A DNA stretch of 64,000 bases from positions 10,360,938 through 10,424,937 of the forward strand of contig NC_089312.1 in assembly GCF_036669915.1 (NCBI RefSeq). Reading direction: 5' to 3'. The stretch comes from Pocillopora verrucosa. Lineage: Eukaryota > Cnidaria > Anthozoa > Scleractinia > Pocilloporidae. Each line of letters starts with the position of its first letter. Position 1 is the stretch's first letter. The translations under genes were made by a program, and so were the position numbers. Below are positions 4,920 to 53,759 of the stretch, one piece after another. The notes under the pieces were generated by a model. The model was not told the origin of the DNA. It did no database searches and worked only from the letters and a program-made list of their open reading frames with translations.

Positions 4920-5220
4920 GTCAACAACCCTCCACTCCACATAATAAACAGAAATCTTGCGATTTATCTCTGATGAGTTGCTTGACATGCTTAAAAGTCC
5001 GCCCTTTCTAACCAGGCAACATTACAAGAAACTTATCTACCATTTTGTTAGCACCTGGAAAGATTGAAATGGGGGAGAAAAATGACAATAAAAGAAAAAA
5101 TTAAAAAAGTAGTGGAGCTTACTAAGACTAATGCCACTCACTGAAGATTTTAATGAAATTTGTTCCTTATTTTTCACACAGGGAAGGAGAAGCATAAGAA
5201 GATACAGGAGTCTATCTAAA
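4920..5220. other. No recognised feature
   Basis: AT-rich spacer between the truncated LINE and the 424-bp duplication. I see no reading frame or repeat that I can name. Confidence 0.3.
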
Positions 5221-6069
5221 CACCGAAGTCAACCTTTAAGGACGCCTTAGGTTTTTCCTGAAGGCACCGAAATAGGAGCATTCGTTCTGTGAATAACGTC
5301 ACGTGTATGGCGAATAACACCACATGCACATCCTATGCAGTAAGTATCCACGTATTTTTTTGTTTACCGCATCTTGAAAATCTTGTCGACCTTTTTCGTC
5401 GGAAATTAGATGTTTTCATTTGCAGAATCACCATAGCTGCGATTTTTAATTACAGTTTAAACGCATATTGCGAGACACCCGGACCAAGTTACAAAAAACA
5501 GAAATGATTGGTTCACAAAATATTGCTCAACGACCACCGCCGAAAATGTCTCTCTAAATTAAATGTTAGCTCTACAAGTTTTCGCACAAACCAATTTCTA
5601 ACTGCATTCGTAGTCGCCTTTGCTGTAAAACGGATCTACTAAGACACCGAAGTCAACCTTTAAGGACGCCTTAGGTTTTTCCTGAAGGCACCGAAATAGG
5701 AGCATTCGTTCTGTGAATAACGTCACGTGTATGGCGAATAACACCACATGCACATCCTATGCAGTAAGTATCCACGTATTTTTTTGTTTACCGCATCTTG
5801 AAAATCTTGTCGACCTTTTTCGTCGGAAATTAGATGTTTTCATTTGCAGAATCACCATAGCTGCGATTTTTAATTACAGTTTAAACGCATATTGCGAGAC
5901 ACCCGGACCAAGTTACAAAAAACAGAAATGATTGGTTCACAAAATATTGCTCAACGACCACCGCCGAAAATGTCTCTCTAAATTAAATGTTAGCTCTACA
6001 AGTTTTCGCACAAACCAATTTCTAACTGCATTCGTAGTCGCCTTTGCTGTAAAACGGATCTACTAAGAC
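5221..6069. repeat. Perfect 424-bp tandem duplication
   Basis: Two adjacent 424-bp units (about 5221-5644 and 5645-6069) appear identical wherever compared, including a small 72-codon frame repeated at 5289 and 5713. The shared end is ggatctactaagac. Such identity implies a very recent duplication, or an assembly join of two haplotypes. The repeated frame resembles no family I know and is probably not a gene. Confidence 0.92.
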
Positions 6070-8905: not shown

Positions 8906-10852
8906 CTTCTACGGTTTTAAAGGGGTGGGGGTAGGGGGTAATTTAGGCGTGTACGTTAATTTTAGGAAATGGCCTTCCAAAGATCCTGTAGTTTTACCTT
9001 ACAAAGATTTTAAGAAGACAATTTTGTTGAAAATTTCCTCGGAATATGAAAGTCCTGAAATATTGCCCAGTTGCTGGTTAAAATGTAAAAAAATCTTCAA
9101 AGCCGACGAAAGTGCTTCAAAACTCCAACGCAGCTAGCAAAGACTGGGCATGAAGAGAGCAGTTGCATTTTATTTCTTTTTGAAAAAATCTCTATCATTT
9201 AAACTATTTAATGAATAAATTTCCTCATAAGAACAAAATAAAATATTCATCAGATTTCACACAATGCCAAACACATAAGTCTGCTAAAAATAATTTTGAA
9301 ATATGTTGACTGAAAAACATTGTCATGTTAGTTTTCGGCTATGATACACTTCTAAGTCACAGTTTTGTCGACAGCACTTATCTCGCCCACACAAAGGCAC
9401 TTGAGTTTAGCAAAGTCATTGAAAAATCTTCATATCGTGCCCAACCAATCGTGCTTCATATCGGGCCAACCCAGATGAAGGGTATTGGAATGGCAGTTGA
9501 CGCACAGGCGAAGTTGTGACCGGCCTTCATTCAAGGAAAGAAGGAATTAAGCATTCCTTCCTTCCTTTTTTTCTAGTAGCACAATTAACTTCTTACCATT
9601 TCAAGTCCTTAGCCGTGAGAAACGCAGCGAGTTATTTGGTTATTGAAAACATCACGTTCGAAGTGTGACTGTTTCCATGTTAACAAAGATGTTAGCGGAA
9701 GAAACCGCCCACGTTAGAACTTATATGAAATCAGCGTCCTATATTTATTCCGTGGATCACTCGAGAAATTCAATTTACTGCATCAATGCACAGATTTCGC
9801 AAACTCATGAGAAAATCATTGTTGCATTACATTCAAAGTTTTCTACAGTCTATCACATGTAATGGAAAAAAGCAACAATTATAGGTACTTACAAGAAGCG
9901 TTGATCATCTTGGGATCAAAGGCGCGTTAATAGCTATGTTTTCTTCTCCATAACTAAAGTTTTCTTTTTTAATGATGACCTTTGAGTAATTACTATGATC
10001 AATATAAATTAAAAAAATCAAAGACTTCACAGCGGCATAGAAAGACCAGAAAACATGCCAATCAACAGCTGAAAAGATGAAACATAAAAACATTTATTTA
10101 CGCGGCACATTTATCTCCTAAAAAAATAACTTCGGTGAAATGTTAGACTGATATCATCCATTTCGGGTCGAGCCCGGGATTAATGCGTTAAGAATGTGTT
10201 CAAGTGACTAAGTGACAGTGTTAATACATGATTTTAATGAGTCACAAGTTGAGATTAATTATCTTCTTAATGAGATAGTTTTAAAAGTTAACTTTGGGAA
10301 TGAATCTTGACAAAAGCTTGATTTACACTGTTCTGATTAAACCGATTTCTTCGGCATCCTGATATTCAAAGGCCCATCAATTTTGATAGCAATCCGCTCT
10401 ATTACAACTGTAGCATGGACATGCGTTATATTGACTAAAGAGACAGATCCAGAAGCTACGCATTAAAGAAATAACGCAATCTTCAAAGGGCAATGAATCC
10501 TCCAATGCTTTATAATTGTGGCTGCGTATTAAGTTTAGTTAATTCACTCAGGAATAGGTTGTTTTAATAAAAAAAAAAGCAATTAATTTTCAATCTAGAA
10601 AAATTGTGCGCTGTTTCAGTTTCGTATTTAATTAGTTTCCATGGTGTTTATCCCAAAACATAGACGCAAAGAAGGAAAAAATAGCTACACCCTACTTGAA
10701 TTCAAGTTCTAAAGCCAACATGTTCGCCGGTAATTATTTGTTATGTAGATATGATTGGCATTTTCCAGATCCTGAAGAACCTCACGATTAACGCAAACCG
10801 CAGCCCTGTTGCACAGTAAATAAAAGAAAAACGCTATATTGATGAATCATGA

Positions 10853-10878
10853 CACGTGATCCTAAATCGCTATAAAAG
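10853..10878 (+). promoter_or_regulatory. E-box and TATA box of peptide gene 1
   Basis: CACGTG at 10853-10858 is followed 12 bp later by TATAAAAG at 10871-10878, about 112 bp before the start codon. Both elements and their spacing recur upstream of the two paralogues (18270-18295 and 26000-26026). A TATA-type core promoter suits a strongly and cell-specifically expressed gene. Confidence 0.7.
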
Positions 10879-10989
10879 AACACACTGAAATTGTTTCAAT
10901 CATTGGATAACAGCAGAGGTGACTATTGCAAAGGAAATTGGAAAGCAGATCCTTTTTTTTATAAACACTAGCCATAAAGTTCCTTAACC

Positions 10990-13900
10990 ATGAATACATG
11001 CAGGCTTTTAATTTTGGTAGGTACATCCAACAGTTTATAATCTCTTGATATTGACACCTTAAAGCAAAATTTCAGCCAAGTAGTTTGTTTGAACAGGAAA
11101 CCATGATGATATCCTAAGCTTACAAATTGTCAGTTTTATGCTCTGTCTGTAACCCTGATTTTGGAGTGAATGAATCAAATCAAATCACCTGCGATGTACC
11201 AGGCCTATAAGAAAAATTTTCCGTTAGTATTGCACCCCCTATCTTGTGCTAAAATCTCATTTTTTGCGTTAGCTTTAAATTCGTTTCGCTTCCAAAGAGA
11301 TGGGGCTGGCGTCAAAATTATACAAAATACTTTGAATCATAACAATAACCTTTATAAGGAAAGGAAATAAATGACCGAAGTGATTTGACGTCATTTTTCA
11401 ATTTCCTCTTTCTTGTGTTCGAACAGAAATCGCACCTGACTAGTGTTAAAATCAGCTTTCGTCTCCCACGTACTTGTGTTCAAGAAAAACGCGTTAGAAT
11501 TTTTTTACGTTTAAATAAATCGAACGAAATTTGAATGGACTTACAAATATATATGCAGTGGCTGTTAGGTAATTAGCTTCCTCTGAATCTTCTAAGCCCA
11601 TAGATAGAAGTTTATATATGATCTTTGATCGCTTGACCTTCTTGTTTACAGGCAGCAATCTGTGTTATATTCCTGGTGTTATTTGTTCAAGGAAAGAATG
11701 AAAACGAAGTCAGTGAGTCAGATGTGGAATTGCAAGGTGTGTAGTAATTACATTGTAGGTGTGTAGTAATTACATTAATAAAAATGTCTGTGGTAATCAC
11801 ATATAAACTTTAACGGCCGAACTGGAGGCTTTTTATTTTGTTCAAAATAAAAAAAAGATAAAAAACCAAAGCAAAACAATGACGGAACCAGAAACAAAAT
11901 TAAAACAAACAAACAAATAAGGGCCCTTTTAGACTCTGCTGCTTTAAAATGAAATAAGGCCCAGCGTGGTAATTTTGTGTAGAGTTGCTTCTCACCGACA
12001 AACATTGTTCTAGTTATCGAGGGTAAAATTATGTGGAAAATCACCTGACAGGAAGCGCAATTTCAAAGATTTGAGTCGCGTTGAGGGGTTGAATTGTCGG
12101 TCGACAGTACAGTTAAAAAGGTAATAGCTCACAACTGCACGCAGTTGAACGTTGAATAAAACAACGCGACAATAAGACTTGCCTTCAATCAATATCTCTA
12201 CATATCGACTCCATACCGTAGAAATGTCTTTGAAAACAATGCACGCTGGGAAAACTGGGAGTACATCAAGTCCGTCAAGGCTTACTGGTAAACTTCTCGG
12301 GAAAAATAAGTTAACAAACGCGTAATATAGTTTTTTTTCTCTGATGCTTCAGCTTAATTTTGTTCTAGCGATCCTGTTCTCTTTCTAAGTTGCTAAGGAC
12401 CTCTTCTTCTTAAAGTTAAGTTTGGACCGCTTTCGTAAAAAACGCTCTAAAGTTACGAGATATGTCGTTTTCATTTACTTCTGAAACTTTAACCTCTGTT
12501 TCGACTTCATTTGTTGACCAAATATATCGAAGCAGCTCAGCAAAAATGAGTTGAGAAGTAAAAAGTGTTCAAATTATAATTCGAAAAAAAGTGGTCTAAT
12601 CGTTGTACTTTAAGATGTTCACAGGATTGATATCGCCAGGATATAAAAATAATTAGAACCTGTTCTGTCCTGCTTGCTATACCTGTACTATTGTTTTTTG
12701 ATATCATCGATGTGATAAAAGGGAACCCTTCATTTAAACAGATTCAAAGCAAGTTGAAAGCGAACCTTAGGCCCTTTTATCCCTGACTGAACCTATGTAT
12801 TTAGAGAATTGTTTGTATTTTCCAGGCCATAATCTCCGAGAAAAGAGGAGCTATAGGTTTTACTCCAGACGCTGTCTACTCACTTATTGTAAGTAATCGC
12901 TCTGACAAAGGGCTAACGCTCGAAACGTCAGCTTTTTTACTCTTTACGGCGGCCAATTTACGTTTTCAACTCAGTTGTTAACACTGAATTACTCACTTAC
13001 TGTAAGCAGCTTATTCTGTTTTTATCAAAAAGATTTTGCCAAAAATTACGATCAAACTTAGTAGCACTCTGTGCACTGTGATTGGTAGTTATCGTTGATC
13101 AATCATGGAGAAATCGTTTTCCTTGCTTTGTTCAGCGTGACGCGCAGTCCTAAAAATGTTAAGAAGATTTATCCGAATATAAGAGGTGAAAGATCTGTTA
13201 ACTAGGAATAGAAGGAGGACCGGTTCCTTGCGAAGAGAAAAATACGTCAATAGGGACATAAAATTCAGAGAGTCAGGCGAACGAGGGAATTTTTATTTGC
13301 CTTTCTGGTATTAAATGAAATATGTATTTCCCGTGTGTCTTAAATCAAATCACGGTCGCAAAATCGTGGTCAACAACATCAATGGCACACAAGTTGCTCG
13401 GTATACCACCTTCTTTTCTCTTACCATGTTTTGATGGAAAAAAAAAAAAAAAAAAAAAAAAAGGCGCCAAAGTTGCATCAAACGGCTCAACATCTGACCA
13501 AGGGAGGCTTAAGACATAGGTTACTCATTGAACGTTATCTAAAGCAATTGTCTGTGTTATTTTTTCATCAGTGAAGAAGAAGAAGTGGCTACTCAAACGT
13601 GTACTGAAAGAAGTTGATTGCTTGGATAATAAAAAATGCCGATTTTATCAAAAGAAGCTTTTTGGTAAGTATCATGTTTAGTTACTAACCCTCACCAATT
13701 CCAGACCTACAACAAAATGCTGTCAGAGTAAATAGTTCAGAAGATTAGAAGACAGATTGCCTTCCGGAGAAATGCTTAATTGATAGGGACATCACTTTTC
13801 CATAAAAAATCTCCTCCCCCCCCCTCCCTTAGCGTAATAAAAAATGACTGGTTTCTAATGATTCTCTCCTTAACTACACTGAGACATTTGTAAACCAATT

Positions 13901-14205
13901 ACTCTGCCCTTGATAGGGGAGCGTTTAGTAATGTTTTGTTTACCCTCTCAATAATACAAGTGTAACGGTTAGTACCTTGTTCAAAACAAGGACGCACTGT
14001 TAACAGAGTTGTACCATTTGTCATATCTATAACAGGAGAGATTTTCAAGCCACCCACTCCTGCTCCACCTATGAGTCCCACCCCGTCGCCTTCCTCCAGT
14101 CCTGTGATGTCCGTAACCCCTTCAAGTTCACAAGTTGTATCTTTGATGCCGGTCGTATCGCCCACACCATCCTCCAGCAGTGTAATGGTTTCACAGACTG
14201 TTTAG
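10990..14205 (+). CDS. Secreted cationic cysteine-containing peptide precursor, copy 1
   Basis: Five exons: 10990-11016, 11652-11736, 12826-12888, 13572-13664, 14036-14205 (438 nt, 145 residues). Intron 1 is phase 0 and the rest are phase 1. The product starts MNTCRLLILAAICVIFLVLF (signal peptide), followed by an acidic propeptide ending LREKR, a furin-type site. The predicted core has LKKKKWLLKRVLKEV, a cationic stretch that could form an amphipathic helix, with cysteines spaced C-x20-C-x5-C. The tail is Pro/Ser-rich with one copy of the 14-residue repeat seen in the paralogues. The arginine/tyrosine-rich segment of copies 2 and 3 is absent because exon 3 is only 63 nt. A poly(A) signal lies at 14571-14576. 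No named family is recognised; a role as antimicrobial or matrix peptide is inference. Confidence 0.78.
12877..13006 (+). mobile_element. Short ribozyme-bearing retroelement fragment at a splice donor
   Basis: About 97 bp at 12894-12989 is flanked by a 17-bp near-perfect direct repeat (tactcacttattgtaag at 12877-12893 and tactcacttactgtaag at 12990-13006). The insert holds ctctgacaaagggctaacgc followed by tcgaaacgtcagc, a degenerate hammerhead core of the type found in Penelope-like elements, and a tail shared with 31640-31820. The duplicated target contains the GTAAG donor of exon 3, so both borders keep a donor. Confidence 0.75.
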
Positions 14206-14242
14206 CCAATCAGCCCTTAGTCTCCGCAGCAGCCTTTCTACA

Positions 14243-14325
14243 GGATGTCACGTAAATCTACAAGAAGTCACGCAACGTATCTTAACCCCTTCCCCCTTTG
14301 CGTAGAAAAGAGTTGTGTAACATCC
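14243..14325 (+). other. 3' UTR hairpin of peptide gene 1
   Basis: The arms ggatgtcacgtaaatct (14243-14259) and agagttgtgtaacatcc (14309-14325) pair imperfectly. Equivalent arms follow the stop codon in both paralogues (21312-21395 and 29819-29890). Confidence 0.5.
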
Positions 14326-14599
14326 TGAAATATTGCTACGAAGAAGAATCGTCAATATCGAGTGTCCGTAACGTAGTTCCGGATCAATTTCCATGGCATT
14401 TTTTTTATAACAAACACACCAAGTGGATAAAGAAGTGTCAGTCCCCGCAGCAAATCTTGTCTATTTTACGTTTGTGCAAAGGTATTTGTCCTGAACTATG
14501 CCACTGAGGGAAAGGCGTTATGTGGGGCTTCTTGTGAAATATCTGTTAAGAGATATTTAGGCTTTATCAAAATAAAACAATATAGAAAATCCACACCAT

Positions 14600-17500
14600 C
14601 CAAAACAATAGAATATTTGTGATATTATAGTATTAAACTTTATATTACATATGAAATTTTCAGTTAACTTTGAGACAGAACTGCATGTATATACAACATG
14701 GTTGCTACAGCCATGCATGTAAGTTTATGAATTTCTCTGACAAATGTAAAATTCCCCTGACAATATAGAAAAATTATTTCTTTGGTGGAAACCTAACACC
14801 TGCATCTCGTTAATTTTCATGAAACAATATTTCAACAATCCAGCACATTTGTTGTTTCCTTTTTCTAAATAACAATTCAATCTGGAATTTGATTGATAAA
14901 GGAAAAACCATTAAGTGGATATACTACAGTATGTACCACTAGAACCAAATCATATTATTGTTTCTTGAAACCCAATTTAGTTTATTTATATTTCATGTTC
15001 ATAAAAACCTACTAAAGTACTTGAATTGGTAAAAAAAATCCAATTTTTGCTCATTTCTCTTAAAAACAAATTTTCCTTGACTTAGAGTGAAATTTCCTGA
15101 CTTTTCCCTGACCTTGAATCTTTTTTTTGACCATTTCCTGACTTGTGGAAAGTAAAATCCGTGCACGAGTCAAGTTGCCCATCCAGCTGGAGCTTCTCCT
15201 TAACATGAAGCGACCAGAAGAAAAACCAAGGTGAACCCTCAAACGGAGCATAATATTCGATGACAGCGGGCTCTCGTTTGACAAATAACTAGTTTGGTTT
15301 GTTTAATTATGTTCTCTTCGGGCAATAACAGCACAATGAAACGAAACATCATTGTTTTAAATACTAAAAACTAAGTATGGTGCGGTGATAAGAAATCGGA
15401 AATTAGACAACAATGTTCGAATGATAAACAGAGAGATTGAAAGCATCGTCAAAAACACAAAATGGCGGTTGGCGACTGAGTAAATCAAGACCACCCTATG
15501 CACTTTTTTCCTGCGGTTCGCATCACGATAAATAGCAGTTGCATCGAAAAAAAAAGATAGATTTAAGAACAGCTCCATGATTTTTTGACCCCGGAAAAAT
15601 TCATTCACTGACTCAAACTTTAAGGCAAAGTTGAAAAACATAACTCAATCAAATGTGTCATTTCAACTGTCCTGTTACTTCCGTGCCCAAAATTTCGCCT
15701 CTAGCACTCCGTGATGACCACCATCTTCAGTAGGCGAAAACCAGTACCTGTTCACTAATTTCCAATGGAATTATTTGTACGTACGGCGTGTAATAACGAC
15801 TAAACAGCGAACATTTCGAGTTGGGTATAAAAATCTTCGATACCCGAAATGGTCGTCGCCATGTTGTGACGTCAAGTAGTTATCAACTCTGATAACTATC
15901 CCGGACTGACTGAGATGGACAGTTGACCGGAAAAAAAAAATTCTCTTACCAGAATTAAAAAAAATTTAAAAGATTTGCGCAATGTTACCTCGACGGTTTC
16001 TTACGGGTTAAAACTGAGGGTCGAACTTATTTTATACGACTTGTTGACAGATTTACATCTGAAACAAACAAATTAGCTCTCGTGCAACCCGACCCTTATC
16101 AACAACTAATTGAGGGCTAAAGTTTTCACTATACAGTGCACAGTCTGTCCGAGAGCCTGAGACATTCAATACAGAGTATTAATGTCGCCGGACAAGCCTT
16201 CATCTGCATGAATATTTTGCACTGAAACACAGTTGTTCCCAAATAACATAATAAGCAACGACATGAGGAACTTGAAGGTTATTAGACGGGAGGCGGTTTA
16301 AAGGGAGGGAGGAATGCAGGTAATTAAGGTGTCTGAGTTAATTAGGGAAAGGCCTTGCAAACTGTAATTTTAGCCTAAAAAGCATACCGGAAGACAGTTT
16401 TCTTGGAAATGTGCTCGAATTGTGAAATATTGCCCCGTCATGGAAAAATGCGAAACATCTCCGTGGTCGGAAATAATGCTTCAAACTTCAGCGCAGTCCG
16501 GGAATGCCTGGCCGCAGACCACGCAAATTGACACCGCTCCCGATTGATAACTGTTACCTTGAAAACAATAAAAGAAAACCTGCTGACTGACAAAGATACC
16601 GTTCATCTCCTTTCAAACTAAATCGATCAGCTAGAAATGAAGTAACATACTTAGGACTTTGGGTATCATGATAGGTGTGATGTTCAATGAAGAGCAAAAC
16701 TGCGCTAAATTTCTTTTAGAAAAAGTCTTCACCTTTTAAACTATTTGACGAACAAATTTCCCATCTAAGAATTAAGTATGATATTCATCAGATGTTTTGA
16801 TGCAACCAAACAATACTAAGCAAATAACTGGGACTAAAATAATGTTGTAAATATTTTGACCGAATCACATTGCCAAATAGTTTTTGGTAAAACTTATCAA
16901 GAAGTGCAATAATACATCTTTAAGTCAAATTTTTGTTGACAGCGCTTATCTCACCCGCGCGAAATTACGTGAGTTGTGTAAAATCCCTAAAAACCTACTT
17001 ATCACGCATGCCTCGTTAGCTTTCAGGCCAACTTAAATGAAGGATATTGGAATGGCAGTTGACGAACCGACGATGTTGTGACCGGCTTTGATTTGGGGAG
17101 TTGATATTCTCGTGGCAAAACAAAAAAGATAAAACCATTCTTTCCTTTCTCTCTCTTGTAACATGGTTCAATTTTTACCGTTTTAAGGTCTTAACTTTGG
17201 GAAGTGCAAAGAGTTATTTTGTTATGAAAAACGTCACGTTCAAAGTTTGGTGTTCAAGGATCTTAGGCGGAAGAAACCGCCTACGTAAGTGCCTCAATGA
17301 AATCAGCGTCTTATATTTACCCTGTGGGTTTATCAAGAAATTCACTATTACTGCATCAGTGCACAGACTTCGCAAACTCATAGGAAAATTATTATTGTAT
17401 AATATTCAAAATTTTTTATCTATCACAAGAAATAAACTAATGCAAAAATTCAAGGATCCTTACAAGTAACGTTGATCATCTTGGGATCAAGGGTCCGCTA

Positions 17501-18260
17501 ATAGCTATGTTTTCTTCTTCATAACAAAAGTTTTTAATGGCACAATGACATTAACTCGAATAATTTCTGTGATCAATACAAATAAAACGATTTTTACTCC
17601 ACAGGGGCATAAAAAACATTCCAGACAACAGGTAAAAAAGGCAAAAAGAAAAATATTTCTTTAAGCATCACATTTATCTCCTTAAAACTTTAAAATTTAA
17701 TAAGATCGCTTTAAAGTTTCACTTTGGGAATGGCTCTCGACAAAAGTTTGATTTACACTGTTTTGATTAACTTACTTCCGCAGAATCTCGATATTCAAAG
17801 GCACATCAATTTTAAGAGCAATCCGCTCTATTACACCAGCTTGGGTATGTGTTATATTGGCTAAAAAGACAGATCGAGAAGTTACGCGTTAAAGAAATTA
17901 TGCAACATTAAAACGTCAACGAATCCTCTAAAAAGTGTCGTGGTTAATGTTTCTTAAATGAAGCTTAATAATTTTATCTTTTTCCCTTAATGATTAGCCT
18001 TAACGGTTTCCTTCGTGGACTGTCGTACCCTTGCGAAGTTCCTGATGAAATTAGTTTCCATGGTGTTTTTCCTAAAACAGTCACAAAGAAGGAAAAAATA
18101 GCTACACCCTACTTGAATTCAAGTACTAAAGCCAACATGTTCGCCGGTAATTATTTGTTTTGTAGATATGATTGGCATTTTCCAGATCCTGAAGAACTTC
18201 ACGATTAACGCAAACCGCAGCCTTGTTACACAGTAAATAATAGAAAAACGCTATATTGAT
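14600..18260. other. Spacer between peptide genes 1 and 2
   Basis: This is duplicated spacer that recurs at about 22.2-26.0 kb. Short frames are shared between the units, but they shift or break between copies (for example a 103-codon frame at 23632-23943 is interrupted at 16068), so I see no conserved gene here. Confidence 0.5.
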
Positions 18261-18269
18261 GAATCATGA

Positions 18270-18295
18270 CACGTGATTTTAAATCGCTATAAAAG
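18270..18295 (+). promoter_or_regulatory. E-box and TATA box of peptide gene 2
   Basis: CACGTG at 18270-18275 and TATAAAAG at 18288-18295 have the same spacing as in copy 1. They lie 110 bp before the start codon. Confidence 0.7.
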
Positions 18296-18405
18296 TACAC
18301 ACTGAAATTTTTTCAATCATTGGATAACAGCAGAGGTGACCATTGTTGAAGAAATTGGAAAGCAGATCCTTTTTCTATATACACCAGCCATAAAGCTCTT
18401 TAACC

Positions 18406-21274
18406 ATGAATACCCTCAGGCTTCTTATTTTGGTAAGTACATTTTAATCAGTTAATTAAGTTCCAGTGGAGTATTTTGTACGTCAGTAAAGACATTTGTC
18501 TATGTTTCCAAGTTATGATCATTGGAAATTGCAAAACCCAATTTTAAAGATAAAAAACTTTAAAGAAAACATTTTTATTTTGATCGTAAATTATTTGCAC
18601 ATGAAACTACAATAATATTAAGAGCTATTTTTCTGCAACATCCTTATATATGATGCTTTTTTACTGATTCTGGCAGAATGTCCGTCAAATATGAACCTTT
18701 TCAATTGTCTAATTCGCTCACAAGCTCTGTTTAGCTTATTTTACAAAGCATCGCTTATTGGACGGAAAAATGAGAGGACTGAGGCTACAATTCTTTTAAT
18801 TAGATTATCGTCCTACGCTTGTGAAAAATTTTCCACATCCTTCGGCGTAGTTGTCATTGATTTCGGAGTGAAGGAATACGATTACCTGCGATGCATTGAA
18901 CCAGTATGAGGACTCTTGCGCCAGTATTGCGCTCAAATATCACGTTTTTTTATTTACAAGTTATTGCCTTCAGAAAGCTGGGAATGGCAACAAACTTCAA
19001 CAAAATACTTTGATCAACTTCAATTAACTCTGATTAATTAAGCAATAAAGGAGATAAAGAAAGTGACCGAATGACAAAAGTGATTTTACGTTCTTATTCA
19101 AGATCCGCTTTCTAGTGTGTGAGTAGATATTGCACTTGGCTACGGTTAAAGTCGTCTTTCATTTCGCGTCAATATTAATGTTGTCCAAGAAAAACACATC
19201 TGAATTCATTTACTAGAATAACCCACTGCGGCCATACTCATAGATGTGATAGCTGGTCGCTGACAGGTTATCCGCACTTGTGTCCATAATTAGAAGTTTA
19301 TGGCCTTTATTCTTCTTGTTTACAGGCAGCATTCTGTGTCATATTCCTGATATTACTTGTTCAAGGAGAGAATGAAAACGAAGTCAGTGAGATAGACATG
19401 GAATTGCAAGGTGCTTGATAATTATTTCTCTCTCACACAAATTCAAATTGAGTTAAAAACGAACCTTTATCACTGACTGTATCTATGTGTTCGTCAATAA
19501 ATTCTTTTTATTTTCCAGGCCATAATCTCAGAGAGAAGAGGAGCGTCGGGTGGTGGGGAAGGAGGAGCCGCCGCCATTACCGCCCCTCTTACCGCCGCCG
19601 TTACCATTACCGTTATGGTTACTGCGCACGCTATTGGGGTAAGTAGCTTATTCTGTTTATATTAAAATAAATCAGCTAAAAAATTTCTTTTACAGTTTGC
19701 ACTCTGGTGGTAAATTGCGATGTAACCTCGTGCCCAGATCCTGCCGTTTAAGTAACCGAAATGCCTTTTCAGACTTTGGGGCATATTTTCGCCAAACCTA
19801 AGGATCCTGTCACGAAAGAACAACGAACCGACGCCATTTCTTCTATTCCTTGCAATGACTGTGACAACGAATACATTGGACAGACCAAACATCACTTTGG
19901 TACACGTTTAAAAGAGCACCAAAAAGCGGTTTTCCTTTGCAAAAAGGAAAATTCAGCTTTATCGGAGCTACATGCCTAACTAACCATACAATTGGGTGGG
20001 ATAATTCTAAAATTATCACCACTAATCGGCGTTACCACTCGCGCCTTTGTTTGGAGGCTTGGCATATTAACTCCGCCCACGCTCCTTTAAATCGTGACGA
20101 TGGCGGTTTGCTTCCTGACGCCTATTTACACCTCGTCAGAAAAAATTAGTGATCATATAAAAGGACCTCTTGTTGCAGCGTTTAGATCACCCCTGATGAA
20201 AGCACTAGACAGGAGTGTCGAAACGTTGGGTCTATGAATTGTAACTTCTTCGGTTACATTCATTAAATCTGCAAACCAGAGTAGCATCAAACTATGTTTG
20301 CAACTAACTGTGTTTTTCTTAAACAGGAAAAAGGAAGTATTCCATACTCAAATCTGTACTGAAAGAAGTAGACTGCTTGAATAATACAAATTGCCAAAAA
20401 AGTCAAGTCAAAATCTTTGGTAAGTATCATGTGAAGTTACTAACCCTGATTAGAGCTAGACCAACAACAAAATGCTGACAAAGTAAGTAATCCATGCCAG
20501 AAACGTAGTAGAGACTCTGTTTCCGGAGAAATGCCTGATAGAGAAAGCATTTCTACATAAACAAATGACGCAATTGCCAAGTAAGCCGAAGCATAATCAG
20601 ATCTTGAGTTTAGGTTGCTACTGATTAAACCCAAGATATCATTATTTATTCTCCCTACTGTTTGCCATGTCATTCTCATTATGTTTGTTTAGAGAATTTG
20701 GTAGTTGATGAACTAATCATGCCCTCATTGATATGTTTTTCTGTATTGTCATCACTTTTCTGCTGAATCTTGTATTAATATTATAAGGAGAAATTCAGTT
20801 TCGGTCACACTGGATAGTAAGAAGTTGGGGGGGGGGGGGAAGAGGTTGAAGGAATTTGTTTGTGTCACAATAAAATTTACCTGATTTCCCCCCCCCCCAT
20901 TTCATACCAATTATTCTGATCTTGTTTGGAGGAAGTCCACAGTTCTCTAGATCGAAGTTGTTCGTACCACCCTCTTTATTGTATAAGTAAAACGGTTAGT
21001 TCTTTGTTTAAAGCAAGGACGCGCTATAAACAGAGTTGTACCATTTATCATATCACTTACAGGAGAGATTTTCAAGCCACCCACTCCAGCCCCACCCATG
21101 AGTCCTATTCCGTCGCCTTCCTCCAGTCCGGTGATGACCGTATCGCCTTCAAGTTCACAAGTTGTATCGTCGATGCCGGCCGTATCACCTTCAAGTTCAC
21201 AAGTTGTATCTTCGATGCCGGCCGTATCACCCACACCATCCTCCAGCAGTGTAATGGTTTCACAGACTGTTTAG
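18406..21274 (+). CDS. Secreted Arg/Tyr-rich cationic peptide precursor, copy 2
   Basis: Five exons: 18406-18432, 19326-19410, 19519-19638, 20327-20419, 21063-21274 (537 nt, 178 residues), in frame throughout. It has a signal peptide (MNTLRLLIL from exon 1, AAFCVIFLILLVQG from exon 2), an acidic propeptide with many Glu residues, the LREKR cleavage site, then a core starting SVGWWGRRSRRHYRPSY. The core contains about eleven Arg and many Tyr/His before its first cysteine (YGYCARYW). Cysteines are spaced C-x20-C-x5-C. The tail starts with FKPPTPAPP and holds two copies of PSSSQVVSSMPAVS. The exon 2 donor is weak (gtgctt), which might reduce splicing. Intron 3 hosts a Penelope-like fragment. The function is unknown; a secreted host-defence or structural peptide is the best guess. 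Confidence 0.8.
19762..20297 (+). mobile_element. Penelope-like element 3' end (GIY-YIG endonuclease remnant)
   Basis: Frames at 19761-19979 and 19937-20149 give IPCNDCDNEYIGQTKHHFGT and then CLTNHTIGWDNSKIITTNRR, the C-terminal GIY-YIG-type endonuclease region of Penelope-like retroelements. A frameshift near 19965 separates the two parts, so the copy is dead. Downstream lies a hammerhead-ribozyme motif. The surrounding intron sequence matches unit 3 on both sides, which dates the insertion after the split of units 2 and 3. Confidence 0.8.
20186..20232 (+). ncRNA. Hammerhead ribozyme motif of a Penelope-like element
   Basis: The core CTGATGA (20193-20199) and GAAAC (20220-20224) flank a stem II formed by GCACT and AGTGT. 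GTT follows as the cleavage triplet, and stem I pairs ACCC before the core with GGGT after it. The very short stem III is typical of hammerheads in Penelope-like elements. Activity is not shown. Confidence 0.65.
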
Positions 21275-21311
21275 CCAGTCAGCGCTTAGTCTCCGCAGCA
21301 GCCATTCTACA

Positions 21312-21395
21312 GGATGTCACGTAACTCTACGGGAAGTCACCCAACGTATCTTACCCCCGTCCCCCTCAGCGTAGTAAAAGAGTTGTGTAACATCC
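21312..21395 (+). other. 3' UTR hairpin of peptide gene 2
   Basis: Arms ggatgtcacgtaactct (21312-21328) and agagttgtgtaacatcc (21379-21395) pair in the same place as in copies 1 and 3. A candidate poly(A) signal AATAAA lies far downstream at 22166, beyond about 0.5 kb of inserted DNA. Confidence 0.5.
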
Positions 21396-22199
21396 TGAAA
21401 TATTGCTACGAAGAAGAATCGTTATTATCGAGTGTCCGTAACGTAGTTCCGCATTAGTTTCCATGGCATTTTTTTTCATAACAAACACACCAAGTGGATA
21501 AAGAGCCGGTGTTTTCCAAAGAGCAAAGACTTGACATAATTGAATTATGAATGTTTTTTTAATTTTTAATTTTTTCACAAATTTGGATTATATCGGACCA
21601 ATTAACGCTCAGACTCACATGTAAACTTAAACCTCCACCATGGTACAAGGGAGGTGGTTGGAACTTCCAAACACTTAGCGTTCCGTTTTGTTGCAACATT
21701 TTGAAAAGTTGCGATGTTAATATTATGGAATACATACGCAAATGGCGCTGCTGGGGACCAGTGACGTCATTCAACAGAGCGGATTTTTCAAGATTTTTCA
21801 CTTTTCCACTGTAATTTTTGGAAGAGTAGCTTTCGAACTTGACAGAAAAATGTAAAATAAGACAAAAAAATAAATAACAGTTTTACTGTACTTTTCATAT
21901 TAACTTTAAAGCTTTAAATTCTTTCGTAGCTCATATCCACTAATAAACCACACATCACTTGTCATTTAATATCTCTTACTCCTTTTCGTCAATTTATTTG
22001 AACTTCAGCTCTTGGCTTTTATACTTCTACGAAGTGTTCCAGTAGCAAACCTTGTCTATTTTTGGTTAGTGCAAGGGTATTTGTCCTGAACTATGCCACT
22101 GAGGGAAAGACGTTATGCGGGGCTTCCTGTGAAATATCTATTAAGAGATATTTAGGCTATATTAAAATAAAACAATATAAAAAATCCACACCATCCAAA

Positions 22200-25100
22200 A
22201 CAATAACATATTTATAATATTGTAATACTACACTTTATATTACATATGACATGTTCAGTTAACTATGAGACAGAAATGCATGTATATACAACATGGTTGC
22301 TACAGCCGTGATGTAGGTTTATGAAATTCCTGACCAATTTCCCAAATTGGCTCAATGATGACCTCAAACCAACCCCACAGCCATCCTCTCCACCCATTTA
22401 TTTATGCTTTCAGTAAGTAAGTCACATGCAGGGCAGATGAATTGATAGTTCCTTGACACAATATAGAAAAATGATTTTTTTGGTGGAAACCAAACAAATA
22501 TATCTTGTTAATTTTCATGAAACAATATTTCAACAATCCAGCACATTTGTTGTTTCCTTTTTCTAAATTACAATTCAATCTGGAATTTGATTGATAAAGG
22601 AAGAGCCATTAAGTGGATATACTACAATATGTACTACTAGAACCAAACTATATTATTGTTTATTGAAACCCATTTAGTTTATTTACATTTCATGTCCATA
22701 AAAACTTACTAAAGTACTTGAATTGGTAAAAAAATCCAATTTTTGCTTATTTCTCTTAAAAACAAATTTTCCTTGACGTAGAGTGGAATTCCCTGACTTT
22801 TCCCTGACCTTGAACAACTCTTTTTTCTGACCATTTCCTGACTTGTGGAAAGATAAAGTAAAATCCGTGCATGAGCCAAGTTGCCCATCCAGCCGGAGCT
22901 TATCCTTGACATGAAGCGACCAGACGCAAAACCAAGTTCAACCCTCAAACGGAGCATAATATTCGACGACAGCGGGCTCTCGTTTAACAAATAACTAGTT
23001 TGGTTTGTTTAATAATGTTTTCTTCGGGCAATAACAGCACAATGAAACGAAACATCATTGTTTTAAATACTACAAACTAAGTATGGTACGGTGATAAGAA
23101 ATCGGAAATTAGACAAAAATGTTCGGATGATAAACAGAGAGATTGAAAGCATCGTCAAAAACCCAAAATGGCGGTTGGCGACTGATTAAGCTGTAAATCA
23201 AGACCACCCTATGCACTTTTTTCTTGCGGTTCGCATCACGATAATTAGCACGTGCATCGAAAAAAAAAATAGATTGAAGTACAGGTCCATTATTTTTTTG
23301 ATTCAGGAAAAATTTTATTCACTGACTAAAACTTCAGGACAAAGTTGAAAAACATAACTCAATCAAATGGGTCATTTCAACTGTCCTGTTACTTCTGTGC
23401 CCAAAATTTCGCCTCTATCACCATCGACCACCATCTTGAGTACACGCGAAGATCAGTATTCATTCATTAATTTCCGGTGGAATTTTTTGTGCAAACGGCA
23501 TGTAATAACAAATTAACAGCGAACATTTCGGATTGGGTACAAAAATCTTCGATACCCGAAATGGTCGCTATGTTGTGAAGTCATACAGTTATTAAATCTG
23601 ATAACTATCTTGGATTGACTGAGGTGGACAGTTGACCAGACAAAATTCTCTTACCAGAATTAAAAAACTTTTAAAAGATTTGCGCAATGATACCTCAACG
23701 GTTTCTTACGGGTTAAAACTGAGTGTCGAACTTATTTTATACGACTTGTTGACAGATTTACATCTGAAACAAGCAAAATTAGCTCTCGTGCGACCTGACC
23801 CTTATCAACAACTAATAATTGAGGGCCAAAGTTTTCACTACACAGCGCACAGTAAGCATTTCCTATCCGAGAGCCTGAGACATTCAATGCAGAGTATTAA
23901 TGCCGGCGGACAGGCTTTCATCTGCATGAATATTTTGCACTGAAACACAGTTGCTCCCAAATAACATAATGAGCAATGGCATGAGAAATTTGAAGGTTTT
24001 TAGACGGGAGGCGGTTTAAAGGGAGGGAGGAATGCAGGTAATTAAGGCGTCTGCGTTAGTTAGGAAAAGGCCTTGCAAACATCCTGTAATTTTAGCCTAA
24101 AAAGCATATCGGAAGGTGATTTTCTTGGAAGGGTACTCGAATCGTGAAATATTGCCCCGTCATGGAAAAATGCGAAACATCTCCAAGGTCGAAAATAATA
24201 CTTCAAACTTCAGCGCAGTCCGGGAATGCCTGGCCGCAGACCACGCAAATTGACACCGCTCCCGATCGGCGACTGCTACCATGAAAACAACAATAGAAAA
24301 CTTACTGACCAACAAAGATACCGTTCATCTCCTTTCAAACTAAATCGATCAGCTGGAAATGAAGTAACATACTTACGACTGTGGGTATCATGATAGGTGT
24401 GATTTTCAATGAAGAGCAAAACTACGCTAAATTTCTTTTAGGAAAAGTATTCACCTCTTATACTATTTGACGAACAAATTTCCCAAGTAAGAATTAAGTA
24501 TGATATTCATCAGATGTTTTGATGCAACCACACAATACTAAGCAAATAACTGGGACTAAAATTATGTTTTAAATATTTTGACCGAATCACATTGCCAAAT
24601 AGTTTTTGGCAAAACTTGTCAAGAAGTGTAATAATACACCTTTAAGTCAAATTTTTGTTGACAGCGCTTATCTCACCCGCGCGAAATTACGTGAGTTGTG
24701 TAAAATCCCTAAAAACCTACTTATCATGTATGCCTCGTAAGCTTTCAGGCCAACCTAAATGAAGGGTATTGGAATAGTAGTTGACGAACAGACGATATTT
24801 TGACCGGCTTTGACTTGGGAGTTGATATTCTCGTGGCAAAACAAAACAGATAAAACCATTCTTTCCTTTCTCTCTCTTGTAACATGGTTCAATTTTTACC
24901 GTTTCAAGGTCTTAACTTTGAGAAGTGCAAAGAGTTATTTTGTTATTGAAAACGTCACGTTCAAAGTTTGGTGTTCAAGGATCTTGGGCGGAGGAAACCG
25001 CCTACGTAAGAGCCTCAATGAAATCAGCGTCTTATATTTGCTCTATGGGTTTATCAAGAAATTCATGTTACTACATCAGTGCACAGACTTCGCAAACTCA

Positions 25101-25990
25101 TAAGAAAATCATTATTGCATAATATTCAAAATTTTCTCTGTCACAAGAAATAAACTAATGCAAAAATTCAAGGATCCTTACAATTAACGTTGATCATCTT
25201 GGGATCAAGGGCACGCTAATAGCTATGTTTTCTTCTCCATAACAAAAGTTTTTGATGGCACTACGACATTAACTCGAATAATTTCTGTGATCAATACAAA
25301 TAAAAACGATTTTATTTTCACAGCGGCATAAAAAACATGCCAGACAACAAGTGAAAAAGACTAATAGAAAAACATTTCTTTAAGCAGCACATTTATCTCT
25401 TTAAAACTTTAAAATTTAATGAGATCGCTTTAAAATTTCACTTTGGGAATGGCTCTCTACAAAAGTTTGATTTAAACTGTTTCGATTGACTTACTTCCGC
25501 AGAATCTTGATATTCAAAGGCACATCAATTTTAAGAGCAATCCGCTCTATTACACCAGCTTGGACATGTGTTATACATGCTAAAAAGACAGATCGAGAAG
25601 TTACGCGTTAAAGAAATTATGCAACATTATAACGTCAATGAATCCTCCAAAAAATTAAATGCAATTGTCGTGGTTGATATTTTATAAATGAAGTTTCATA
25701 AGATTATCTTTTCCCCTTAATGATTAGCCTTAACGGTTTCCTTCGTGGGGTGTCATAGCTTTGCAAAGTTCCTAATGAAATTAGTTTCCATGGTGTTTTT
25801 CCCAAAACAGTCACAAAGAAGGAAAAAATAGCTACACCCTACTTGAATTCAAGTTGAGAAGCCAACATGTTCGCCGGTAACTATTTGTTTCCTAAATATG
25901 ATTGGCATTTTCCAGACCCTGAAGAACTTCACGATTAACGCAAACCGCAGCCCTGTTACACAGTGAATAATAGAAAAACGTTATATTGAT
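22200..25990. other. Spacer between peptide genes 2 and 3
   Basis: Duplicated counterpart of the 14.6-18.2 kb spacer. A 103-codon frame at 23632-23943 is open here but broken in unit 2. I do not recognise it and see no splice borders that would make it an exon. Confidence 0.45.
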
Positions 25991-25999
25991 GAATCATGA

Positions 26000-26026
26000 C
26001 ACGTGATCCTAAATCACCTATAAAAG
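26000..26026 (+). promoter_or_regulatory. E-box and TATA box of peptide gene 3
   Basis: CACGTG at 26000-26005 and TATAAAAG at 26019-26026, 110 bp before the start codon. One extra base lies between the elements compared with copy 2. Confidence 0.7.
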
Positions 26027-26136
26027 AACACACTGAAATTGTTTCAATCATTGGATAACAGCAGAGGTGACCATTGTTGAAGAAATTGGAAAGCAGATCC
26101 TTTTTCCATATACACCAGCCATAAAGCTCTTTAACC

Positions 26137-29100
26137 ATGAATACCCTCAGGCTTCTTATTTTGGTAAGTACATTTTAATCAGTTAATTAAGTTCCAGTAG
26201 AGTATTTTGTACGTCAGTAAGGACATTTGTCTATATTTCCAAGTTATCATCACTGGAAAACCCAAACCCAAATTTAAGATAAAGAACTTTAAAGACATCA
26301 TTTATATTTTGATCGTAAATTATTTGCACAGGAAACTACAATAATATTAGGAGCTAAGAAATTGTCATTTTTGTGCAATATCCTTACATATGATGGTTTT
26401 TTACCGATTCTGGCAAAATGTCTGTCAAATATGAATCTATTCAATTGTCTAATTCGCTCACAAGCTCTGTTTAGCTTATTTTACAAAGCATCGCTTATTG
26501 GACGGAAAAATGAGAGGACTGAGGCTACAATTCTTTTAATTAGATTATCGTCCCACGCTTGTGAAGAATTTTCCACATCCTTCGGCGTAGTTGTCATTGA
26601 TTTCGGAGTGAAGGAATACGATTACCTGCAATGCATTGAACCAGTATGAGGACTCTTGCGCCAGTATTGCGCTCAAATATCACGCTTTTTTATTTACAAG
26701 TTCTTGCCTTCAGAAAGCTGGGAATGGCAGCAAACTTCAACAAAATACTTTGATCAACTTCAATTAACTCTGATTAATTAAGCAATAAAGGAGATAAAGA
26801 AAGTGATTGAATGCCATAGTGATTTTACGTTCTTATTCAAGATCCGCTTTCTAGTGTGTGAATAGATATTGCACTTGGCTATGGTTAAAGTCGTCTTTCA
26901 TTTCGCGCTAATATTAATGATGTCCAAGAAACACACATCTGAATTCATTTACTAGAATACCCCACTTTGCGGCCATATTCATAAATGTGATAGCTGTTAG
27001 CTGACAGGTTATCCGCACTTGTGTCCATAATTAGAAGTTTATGGCATTTATTCTTCTTGTTTACAGGCAGCATTCTGTGTCATATTCCTGATATTACTTG
27101 TTCAAGGAGAGAATGAAAACGAAGTCAGTGAGGCAGACATGGAATTGCAAGGTGCTTGATAATTTAGTTCAAGTCTTAAAACAGAGTAAGCATCATCTCT
27201 CGCATGCGTGCGTTGGAGCCAGTTTTCATGGCCAAACGTAGCGACGCAAACCATCGAAAATAAATTTGGAAGGCAAAAAAATTCATTCCATAATTCAGAA
27301 AACGAAACTAATTACTTCTTAAACTGAAATTTTTATCGGATTAATATCGGATATAAGAATGATGAGAACCTGTTTTTTCCCGCTTCACCAACCCACAGTA
27401 CAAATCTTTGTGGAAAAAAAAACAGTTCTTATGACACCAAGACAGCATTATTTATTTCTCTCTCACACAAATTCAAAGTGACTTTAAAAAGAACCTTTAT
27501 TACAGACCGTATCGGTGTGTTCGTCTATAAATTCTTTTTATTTTCCAGGCCATAATCTTAGAGAAAAGAGGAGCTTCAGGTCGTGGGGAAGGAGGAGTCG
27601 CCGCCATTACCGCCCCTCTTACCGCCGCCGTTACCATTACCGTTATGGTTACTGCGCACGCTATTGGGGTAAGTAGCTTATTCTGTTTTTATCAAAATAA
27701 ATCAGCTAAAAATTTCTTTTAAAGTTAATGCATTATACGTTATGCACTCTGATGGTAATTGGCGATGTAACCTCGTGCCCAGCGTTTAAGTAATTGAAAT
27801 GCTGGGACCGGCCCTCCCAACGCTTGGCCGTAGAAGGTCTGGTTATGAGACTATTGCCGGTGATCAATCAGAGAACAGACGCAAGGAGAGGTCATGAAAA
27901 AGCTCGTTTTTTTTTATTATTTCGTTCAGCGTTACGCACAGTGTTGAAAATATTTGCAATATTTTTATAAATGTAAGAGCTGAAGGATCTGTTTCCGAAG
28001 GAAGAAAAAATGGGCGAGTTCCTAGCTACAAGAAAAGTACGTTGCAAGGCACATAAAAAATCTCAGAGAGTCAAGCGACCGAGGGGAATTTCCTTTTCTT
28101 GTTTAATATCAAGTATAAATTGGCCGTGTGTCTTAAATTTTTAACATAAAAGTCGCCAAATCGTGGTACATGTAATAAAACAATAGATATTATGTTCGAG
28201 CTGCTGGGCAAGGGTTAAAATGACTCTGAGAAGAGCCAAAAACATATTTAAGCCCACGAACGTATACTGTACTATTACTAATATCATCAATAAAATAGCA
28301 ACAGAAAAAAATGAAGAATCACGAGAGTGTGCGAGCTTTCAGCTCAGCAAAATTTTCATTTTAGCCCACAAAATTCGCCATAATGCATGACAAAGGGATA
28401 ATAATAACATCACTGACATACAAACCGCAAGCAAGTGCGCTAATTTTTTTTATTCCTATCACGTCTTGAGGAAAATAATGAAATAGTGAGAAAAAATGTA
28501 GCAACTGACCAAAAAAAAGGTACTTTTTTAAAGCAACTAACTGTGTTTTTCTTAAACAGGAAAAAGGAAGTATTCCATACTCAAATCTGTACTGAAAGAA
28601 GTAGACTGCTTGAATAATACAAATTGCCAAAAAAGTCAAGTCAAAATCTTTGGTAAGTATCATGTGAAGTTACTAACCCTGATTAGAGCTAGACCAACAA
28701 CAAAATGCTGACAAAGTAAGTAATCCATGCCAGAAACGTAGTAGAGACTCTGTTTCCAGAGAAATGCCTGATAGAGAAAGCATTTCTACATAAACAAATG
28801 ACGCAATTGCCAAGTAAGCCGAAGCATAATCAGATCTTGAGTTTAGGTTGCTACTGATTAAACCTTTCACTCCCAAGATATCATTGTTTATTCTCCTTAA
28901 TGTCTGCCATGTCATTCTCATTATGTTTGTTTAGCGAATTTGGTAGTTGATGAACTAATCATGCCTTCCATGATATGTTTTTCTTTATTCTCATCACTTT
29001 TCTGCTGAATATTGTATTAATATTATAAGGAGAAATTCAGTTTTGGTCACACTGGATAGTAAGAAGTAAGGGGCGGGGGGGAGAGGGGTTCTGTCGAAGG

Positions 29101-29796
29101 ATTTTGTTTGTGTCACTAATGATTTGTTTGTGTCACTAATGATTTGTTTGTGTCACTAATGATTTGTTTGTGTCACTAATTGATTATTAGACGTCAATTT
29201 TCTATAGTCCTTCCTTTAATCTCTGATGGAGACGACTGATCCTTCTCTCAGTTCCCCCTAAAAACCGTACGATCCCCCCCTTCGAAAAAAAAACAAACAA
29301 ACGGTCCTACAGGCGATAAATGATGGTTTTTGTCCCTGATTATTCGATCCATAACTAAACCGATACATTTTCATACCAATTATTCTGATCTTGTTCGGAG
29401 GAAGTCTGCAGATCTCTAGGTCGAAGTTGTTCCACCCTCTTTATTGTATAAGTAAAACGGTTAGTACTTTGTTCAAAGCAAGGACGCGCTATAAACAGAG
29501 GTGTACCATTTATCATATCTATAACAGGAGAGATTTTCAAGCCACCCACTCCTGCCCCACCCATGAGTCCAATTCCGTCGCCTTCCTCCAGTCCGGTGAT
29601 GACCGTATCACCTTCAAGTTCACAAGTTGTATCGTCGATGCCGGCCGTATCACCTTCCAGTTCACAAGTTGTATCTTCGATGCCGGCCGTATCGCCTTCA
29701 AGTTCACAAGTTGTATCTTCGATGCCGGCCGTATCACCCACACCATCCTCCAGTAGTGTAATAGCTTCACAGTCTATTTGGACAATCAACATTTAG
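26137..29796 (+). CDS. Secreted Arg/Tyr-rich cationic peptide precursor, copy 3
   Basis: Five exons: 26137-26163, 27067-27151, 27549-27668, 28560-28652, 29528-29796 (594 nt, 197 residues). Same plan as copy 2: signal peptide, acidic propeptide, LREKR site, Arg/Tyr/His-rich core and C-x20-C-x5-C. The core begins SFRSWGRRSRRHY where copy 2 has SVGWWGRRSRRHY, and the rest of exon 3 encodes the same residues. The tail carries three copies of PSSSQVVSSMPAVS. The ancestral stop TAG has become TGG, adding WTINI before the next stop. The exon 2 donor is again gtgctt. No family is recognised. Splice borders were chosen because all three copies share them and keep frame. Confidence 0.8.
29101..29180. 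repeat. 20-bp minisatellite, four copies
   Basis: The unit gatttgtttgtgtcactaat repeats four times in intron 4 of peptide gene 3; the first copy starts with attttg. The same place in copy 2 has a single related stretch, so the expansion is specific to copy 3. Confidence 0.92.
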
Positions 29797-31614: not shown

Positions 31615-31639
31615 TGTCAGTGGGGGAGTAGAACAGGTA

Positions 31640-31824
31640 ATTTAGTGTTAACAACTGAGTTAAAAACGTAAATTGGCCACCGTAAAGAGTAAAAAGGCTA
31701 ACGTTTCGAGCGTTAGCTCTTCGTCAACCGCTCTGACGAAGGGCTAACACTCGAAACGTCAGCTTTTTTACTCTTTACGGTGGCCAATTTACGTTTTCAA
31801 CTGAGTTGTTAACACTAAATTACC
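31640..31824. mobile_element. Inverted pair of ribozyme-bearing retroelement ends
   Basis: Two arms of about 85-90 bp face each other: 31644-31725 on the minus strand and 31729-31824 on the plus strand. Each contains a hammerhead-like core, the actctttacggtggcc block and the gttaacactaaatta end. Only a few bases separate the arms, so a transcript would fold into a long hairpin. The same unit occurs singly at 12894-12989. Confidence 0.75.
31729..31763 (+). ncRNA. Hammerhead ribozyme motif
   Basis: CTGACGA is followed by stem II (GGGC, loop TAAC, then a partly paired ACTC), then GAAAC, the GTC cleavage triplet and AGC, which pairs with GCT before the core to form stem I. All conserved core bases are present. 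Stem III is minimal, as in hammerheads of Penelope-like elements and retrozymes. The facing copy on the minus strand has T in place of the first core C. Confidence 0.65.
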
Positions 31825-46347: not shown

Positions 46348-46419
46348 TAGGTTAGGAGAATGAATGAACCAGATTGCTTTCGACTCAGTCTACCGTTGTA
46401 TATATCCTATCTAAGGTTC

Positions 46420-46590: not shown

Positions 46591-46599
46591 AGGACAAAT

Positions 46600-53475: not shown

Positions 53476-53509
53476 CAGATTGTTTAAGACTCAGTCGACC
53501 TTTGGACAT

Positions 53510-53755: not shown

Positions 53756-53759
53756 TTGT

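Follow-up and report, generated by a model that had tools for sequence, protein, structure and literature searches.

Three tandem genes for candidate secreted host-defence peptides, one apparently chimeric, in the coral Pocillopora verrucosa

Damicornin, an antimicrobial peptide of the coral genus Pocillopora, is described as having a precursor with a signal peptide, an acidic proregion and a dibasic site, and a cationic amidated peptide of 40 residues and six cysteines at its C-terminus (PMC4306955); AmAMP1 is likewise described as a six-cysteine peptide (PMC11767717). Mussel myticalins, according to their descriptions, have conserved ends around a hypervariable cationic Arg/Tyr/Pro centre, a Gly-Arg amidation signal and clustered genes, and six of seven synthetic myticalins are reported to have some activity, D5 having none (PMC5577615, PMC12294457). 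Among amidated signalling peptides, surveyed RWamide sequences lie directly after the signal sequence and mostly have an N-terminal pyroglutamate (PMC7523074), and GLWamides and similar Wamides are reported to come from repetitive precursors (PMC7270403, PMC11087051). Here we describe three tandem genes, g1, g2 and g3, in a stretch of 64,000 nucleotides (nt) of Pocillopora verrucosa DNA (assembly GCF_036669915.1, contig NC_089312.1, positions 10,360,938 to 10,424,937 of the forward strand), referred to as the window, whose first letter is position 1. By analogy, we give about an even chance to their encoding, in tandem, a small family of antimicrobial-type peptides secreted for host defence, and consider this more likely than any single rival reading.

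Re-derivation by script recovered all 15 exons and 12 introns of the three five-exon genes, with the common exon order and phases that an earlier note on this DNA had described. The genes span 10990-14205 (g1), 18406-21274 (g2) and 26137-29796 (g3), and their exons measure 27, 85, 63/120/120, 93 and 170/212/269 nt (g1/g2/g3 where they differ), in agreement with the lengths and coordinates given earlier. The exon sums divide by three, as had also been claimed, with coding sequences of 438, 537 and 594 nt (145, 178 and 197 amino acids) that each end in a stop codon, and the length differences between the genes are multiples of three. The exons, all on the plus strand and with any evidence beyond the script given in brackets, are as follows.

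10990..11016, +, g1 exon 1, start of the signal peptide
11652..11736, +, g1 exon 2, remaining signal peptide and acidic pro-region
12826..12888, +, g1 exon 3, REKR site and start of the basic core
13572..13664, +, g1 exon 4, Lys-rich core with C-x5-C (AlphaFold2)
14036..14205, +, g1 exon 5, Pro/Ser/Thr tail and stop
18406..18432, +, g2 exon 1
19326..19410, +, g2 exon 2
19519..19638, +, g2 exon 3, REKR, Arg/Tyr-rich core and two W-G-dibasic signals (motif analysis)
20327..20419, +, g2 exon 4
21063..21274, +, g2 exon 5, with 42-nt repeats at 21138-21231 and a site switch between 21229 and 21247 (repeats, diagnostic sites)
26137..26163, +, g3 exon 1
27067..27151, +, g3 exon 2
27549..27668, +, g3 exon 3, REKR, Arg/Tyr-rich core and two W-G-dibasic signals (motif analysis)
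28560..28652, +, g3 exon 4 (AlphaFold2)
29528..29796, +, g3 exon 5, with 42-nt repeats at 29603-29738 (repeats)

Splice junctions were placed by sequence and paralogue comparison alone. All 12 introns are GT-AG, with phase 0 at intron 1 and phase 1 at introns 2 to 4 in every gene, so that exon 3 (63 or 120 nt) and exon 4 (93 nt) are each a symmetric 1-1 cassette and the frame could survive the skipping or exchange of either. The donors match six to eight of the nine positions of the splice-donor consensus; the lowest, that of g1 intron 1, scores six, a value reached by 16% of GT sites in the region. No upstream ATG is present in the last 90 bp before the start of any of the three genes, and candidate poly(A) signals lie 206 to 1083 bp past the stops in the 1500 bp scanned, the nearest being at 366 (g1), 595 (g2) and 206 bp (g3).

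Coding status was examined by re-placing the observed substitutions at random, with 3000 randomisations per test. Amino-acid changes numbered 35 versus 53.2 in the randomised sets for g1-g2, 38 versus 53.5 for g1-g3, and 8 versus 13.8 for g2-g3 (p=0.0043), and a stop was present in 97%, 97% and 56% of the randomised sets, respectively, and in none of the real pairs. The same test on the core alone gives p=0.0017 for g1-g2 and p=0.0007 for g1-g3; for g2-g3 it gives p=0.68, with just four nucleotide differences, too few to inform. Because the substitutions spare both frame and amino acids beyond chance, there is strong evidence that g1, g2 and g3 are three intact protein-coding genes. That they are partly untranscribed or mis-modelled duplicates, as the weak donor of g1 intron 1 and a dispersed repeat at the g1 exon 3 donor might suggest, appears very improbable in view of the conservation of frame and amino acids in all three full-length pairs, the lack of internal stops, the uniform GT-AG introns and a conserved promoter.

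The dispersed repeat itself (about 98 bp, 12895-12992) lies directly at the g1 exon 3 donor, is flanked by near-copies of ACTCACTTAYTGTAAG, and recurs at 31637-31823 and in 4 of 24 flank loci; it may have helped to shorten g1 exon 3. Intron 3 of g2 contains a fragment (19755-19976) resembling the GIY-YIG end of a putative Penelope-like retroelement, and blastn aligned it to no other part of the window, including g3. A hammerhead-like look of some repeats, close to exon 3 of g1 and inside intron 3 of g2, was discarded, as the window has no Rfam match at the gathering threshold. Opposite g3 exon 5, the minus strand (29355-29792) is open for 145 codons, perhaps as a by-product of the 42-nt repeats.

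Each predicted precursor has the layout proposed in the earlier note, namely a signal peptide, an acidic propeptide, an LREKR site, an Arg/Tyr-rich or Lys-rich core and a Pro/Ser tail, although internal W-G-dibasic signals in g2 and g3 had been overlooked. Cleavage sites were set by rules, with no trained predictor. All three signal peptides have a hydrophobic stretch, and a cut after residue 23 would place V in position -3 and G in position -1. The pro-region of 22 residues ends in LREKR, with the furin-type site REKR in all three proteins, and has a net charge of -2.2 (g1), -4.2 (g2) and -4.2 (g3); the cores carry +11.5, +14.5 and +15.5, and the tails of 55, 69 and 88 residues are 62, 61 and 58% Pro/Ser/Thr, with a charge of -0.2 in each. 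The mature region of each protein has three cysteines, two of them as C-x5-C in exon 4. The g1 core is short and Lys-rich and lacks a Tyr/Arg array. The g2 and g3 cores have an extra furin-type site, RSRR, and their exon-3 peptides, taken to RYW, are 31% (g2) and 34% (g3) Arg and 22% Tyr, with charges of +10.8 and +11.8, respectively, if amidated. The 42-nt repeats of the tail exon number 2.2 copies in g2 and 3.2 in g3.

An acidic pro-region followed by a furin-type site is a feature more typical of released peptides, and g1 offers just its short Lys-rich core. Both points count against secreted structural, adhesive or mucus/nematocyst-matrix proteins, in which a Tyr/Arg core would cross-link or bind polyanions and the tail would serve as a mucin-like spacer; we regard this reading as unlikely but worth weighing, given the Pro/Ser/Thr content of the tail, its repeats in g2 and g3, the Tyr content of the exon-3 peptides, and the suggestion that small secreted proteins abundant in larvae of coral and Clytia may be antimicrobial or adhesive (PMC12225738).

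W-G-dibasic motifs occur twice in the g2 core, twice in the g3 core and not in g1, and the Gly codon of the second motif is divided by the exon 3/4 junction. Gly and two basic residues directly follow each of the two Trp of the g3 core and two of the three Trp of the g2 core; shuffled cores contain two such motifs in only 9 (g2) and 3 (g3) per 100000 cases, figures that are overstated because the motif was picked post hoc. These internal signals make a signalling-peptide reading a real rival, in which cuts at REKR and at Gly-dibasic sites would yield SFRSWamide or SVGWWamide and a longer peptide ending in CARYWamide, all acting on receptors. Single-copy RWamide precursors do exist in anthozoans, Pocillopora damicornis included, and a survey script passed over single-copy LRWamide genes of Anthopleura, which were later picked up by a pattern search (PMC7523074). 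However, g1 lacks the site, the g2 and g3 motifs neither follow the signal sequence directly nor have an N-terminal pyroglutamate, and length, charge and the Pro/Ser/Thr tail are ill-suited to short neuropeptides; moreover, no word in the main text of the survey starts with RYWamide, SWamide or WWamide, longer names containing them being uncounted (PMC7523074). We give Wamide-type signalling precursors a small chance overall, and consider them a serious rival for g2 and g3.

A slimmer chance goes to an alternative in which the 1-1 cassettes encode two kinds of product per precursor: Trp-amidated Arg/Tyr-rich peptides from exon 3, with signalling and antimicrobial roles, and from exon 4 a disulfide-looped cationic segment on a mucin-like, repeat-extendable tail that would hold it in coral mucus, unequal crossover in the tail exon giving rise to chimeric members. 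Toxin precursors, too, commonly carry a signal peptide, an acidic pro-region and a dibasic site. Venom-type peptides from cnidocytes or gland cells, cytolytic or channel-active, would fit that layout, and toxins and defence peptides are both described as having conserved signal peptides and fast-duplicating, hypervariable families (PMC5577615), but each protein has three mature cysteines and Pfam shows no toxin domain in g1 or g3, and we think them improbable.

Searched as DNA against the whole genome, 1001 bases of g1 returned at least four matches, all inside g1, g2 or g3. A tblastn scan of 240 kb of flanking sequence, 220 kb on the left and 20 kb on the right, revealed no fourth copy at E up to 1, a reversed-protein control also giving none, and exon profiles found no extra exons in the window plus 40 kb, the best non-gene match (E 0.081) being the opposite strand of exon 3 itself. 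Weak tblastn matches in the 40-kb near flank (best E 0.47) and in the window outside the exons (E 1.5 or worse) were set aside as chance. Pfam and NCBIfam give nothing above cut-off for g1 and g3, the two of the three proteins submitted, and PDB gives no significant chain for g1, the sole protein submitted. We regard as compositional the matches of g3 to Pfam RRXRR (E 0.1, 12.9 bits versus a cut-off of 25), of g1 to NCBIfam BimA (E 0.82, 8.5 bits versus 600) and of g1 to PDB chains (E 0.16-0.28). A bacterial or a viral origin was likewise rejected: none of 74 pattern stretches in genome contigs (query g3) and none of 52 in viral contigs (alignment query) encodes a relative at E up to 1e-3. Six sequence strings from these genes do not occur in the literature searched, and no such coral family appears in titles or abstracts among the matches listed, which is not proof of absence. 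The family thus looks unfamiliar as judged by Pfam, NCBIfam, PDB and literature; its description as unrecognised is supported to this extent and only partly tested, absence from cnidarian proteomes being unproved. The three-gene array is not in itself unusual, since tandem duplicates are reported to make up almost a third of the predicted genes in two coral genomes (PMC10236652).

The proximal promoters are strongly alike in the three genes.

10611..10989, +, g1 proximal promoter, with TATAAA at -119, TGAATCA and CACGTG (identical blocks, Kimura two-parameter distance [K2P])
18028..18405, +, g2 proximal promoter (identical blocks)
25758..26136, +, g3 proximal promoter (identical blocks)

TATAAA lies 118-119 bp before the ATG in all three, and we take TGAATCA to be an AP-1-like site and CACGTG an E-box. 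In the 361 bp before the ATG the three genes have eight identical blocks of at least 19 nt in common, and a ninth lies at -613. Over about 360 bp the K2P is 0.074 for g1-g2, 0.086 for g1-g3 and 0.055 for g2-g3, although g1-g2 reaches 0.28 at about -720 to -400 and 0.50 in intron 1. Constraint alone would lower the g1-g2 and g1-g3 distances in proportion to that of g2-g3, from which we infer that the promoter was homogenised by gene conversion and the cores were not; exons 2 and 5 were perhaps homogenised likewise. The promoter profile also matches weakly at two further places, one in the 3' flank of g2 (21439-21505, E 0.0095) and one in that of g1 (14368-14431, E 0.018).

Between g1 and g2, identities of exons 1 to 5 are 0.81, 0.88, 0.60, 0.70 and 0.92, and those of introns 1 to 4 are 0.64, 0.69, 0.42 and 0.65. 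The core exons 3 and 4 of g1 have diverged from those of g2 and g3 to nearly the level of introns, whereas signal, pro-region, tail and promoter are common to all. With ends and promoter homogenised and cores not, the ends would stay common and the cores be free to differ.

The earlier note had the three tandem copies right but missed the apparent chimeric origin of g2. At diagnostic sites, taken from gap-free columns of the three-gene alignment, g2 goes mostly with g3 from upstream to 21229 and with g1 from 21247. The counts for g2+g3, g2+g1 and g1+g3 are 19, 12 and 7 in the promoter, 175, 10 and 9 in intron 1, and 9, 56 and 6 in the 3' flank; in exon 5, 11 g2+g3 sites up to 21229 are followed by 6 g2+g1 sites, with one g1+g3 site. 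The pattern is best explained if g2 is a chimera made by one unequal crossover, placed to within 18 bp inside exon 5, between the fifth exons of g1 and of the g3 ancestor, beside the 42-nt repeats. Such a crossover would account at once for the chimeric g2, the unique 3' flank of g3 and the duplicated spacer.

14760..17500, no strand, spacer 1, duplicated as spacer 2 (90.8% identity, K2P 0.081)
22458..25218, no strand, spacer 2 (90.8% identity to spacer 1, K2P 0.081)

The K2P between the g2 and g3 upstream regions is 0.082, against 0.081 for the spacers, and values of 0.040-0.126 over other g2-g3 and g1-g2 parts indicate uneven rates. The g1-g2 distances point to an older duplication that parted g1 from the ancestor of g3 before the crossover.

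Under the host-defence reading, the precursor would enter the secretory pathway with its acidic pro-region keeping the cationic core inactive until a furin-like convertase cleaves after REKR. In g2 and g3, further dibasic cuts together with carboxypeptidase and PAM would release Trp-amidated Arg/Tyr-rich peptides. The C-x5-C segment would form a small disulfide loop, and the tail, probably O-glycosylated, would keep the product soluble or retained in mucus; the core would bind bacteria and harm them. Novel cores would arise because duplicates hold their ends and promoter alike as exons 3 and 4 diverge.

Several observations weigh against this reading. The core substitution rates for g1-g2 are 0.50 at nonsynonymous sites (dN) versus 0.66 at synonymous sites (dS), and with dN not above dS there is no sign of positive selection, which we dropped as an explanation; the contrast between divergent cores and similar ends probably stems in part from homogenised ends and not accelerated cores. 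No kappa-B-type site was found in the 726-740 bp upstream of g1, g2 or g3. An amphipathic helix was abandoned as a family-wide property, the helix moment exceeding that of shuffles only in g3 (p=0.018; 0.175 for g1 and 0.173 for g2). AlphaFold2 models of the 30-residue exon-4 pieces, from single sequences, give a helix for g3 and a hairpin for g1, with a mean predicted local distance difference test score of 72-75, and in view of this conflict between paralogues we draw no fold. The number of mature cysteines is odd. Finally, none of the tested myticalins is reported to have inhibited Vibrio anguillarum, perhaps through salt (PMC5577615), so activity of an analogue in seawater cannot be assumed. 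The host-defence claim of the earlier note nevertheless stands as the most likely single reading, one that rests on layout, charge and evolution rather than activity. Should the products be effectors, they would add a family that escapes annotation based on known domains, together with a precise genetic record of the origin of a new member, by one tail-exon crossover under one common promoter; should they instead be W-amidated signals, they would belong to the single-copy kind that can go unnoticed in neuropeptide screens designed to seek repeats.

Elsewhere in the window, a long open frame at 1030-4302 has endonuclease and reverse-transcriptase domains (Pfam) and is probably a retroelement of the non-long-terminal-repeat type. 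A tandem duplication at 5211-6069 has a 424-bp period and copies 99.5% identical, so it is probably very recent. Mutually similar open frames at 44472-62000, and at 6932-8382 of L007, look Ig-like by eye, and the six given to Pfam have no match at E up to 0.01; these frames may represent duplicated receptors clustered downstream of the peptide genes.

Compared with known systems, g1-g3 share with damicornin and AmAMP1 a coral host, the signal peptide, the acidic proregion, the dibasic site and a cationic region, and g2 and g3 share with damicornin a Gly amidation signal. They differ from both in having five exons and three mature cysteines instead of six cysteines and three disulfides, and from damicornin in that the C-terminus is a long neutral Pro/Ser/Thr tail, with amidation signals internal (g2 and g3) or absent (g1). 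With no six-cysteine array, no amidated cationic C-terminus and, for g1 and g3, no Pfam match to ShK at E up to 1, we reject membership of the damicornin/AmAMP1 group. SCRiPs have many-cysteine mature peptides, unlike the three mature cysteines in each protein here, and the earlier exclusion of both damicornin and SCRiPs holds on these cysteine counts. Like Antho-RWamide and GLWamide precursors, the proteins are predicted to be secreted, and those of g2 and g3 have W-G-basic amidation signals. Unlike RWamides, they have a 22-residue pro-region between signal and core, and unlike GLWamides, g2 and g3 have at most two dissimilar sites and no repeated peptide, and g1 has none; RWamide membership was rejected, the peptide being neither next to the signal nor multicopy.

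The myticalins offer a further parallel, with a conserved signal and C-terminal region around a divergent cationic centre (Arg/Tyr-rich in g2 and g3), a G-basic amidation signal (g2 and g3), a phase-1 intron, a gene cluster and a low-complexity extension of variable length. As described, however, myticalins have the cationic region directly after the signal peptide, where g1-g3 have an acidic pro-region between the two; their extension is anionic and not neutral; and they have three exons, the first only 5' untranslated region and the core wholly in exon 2, whereas g1-g3 have five coding exons with a core, containing cysteines unlike that of myticalins, in exons 3 and 4. Exon structure, neutral tail and acidic pro-region thus set g1-g3 apart from myticalins as these are described, and the likeness is probably convergent. 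We are evenly inclined to liken the working of g1-g3 to that of mussel myticalins or coral damicornin, without membership of either; the likeness would be one of working, with no descent implied.

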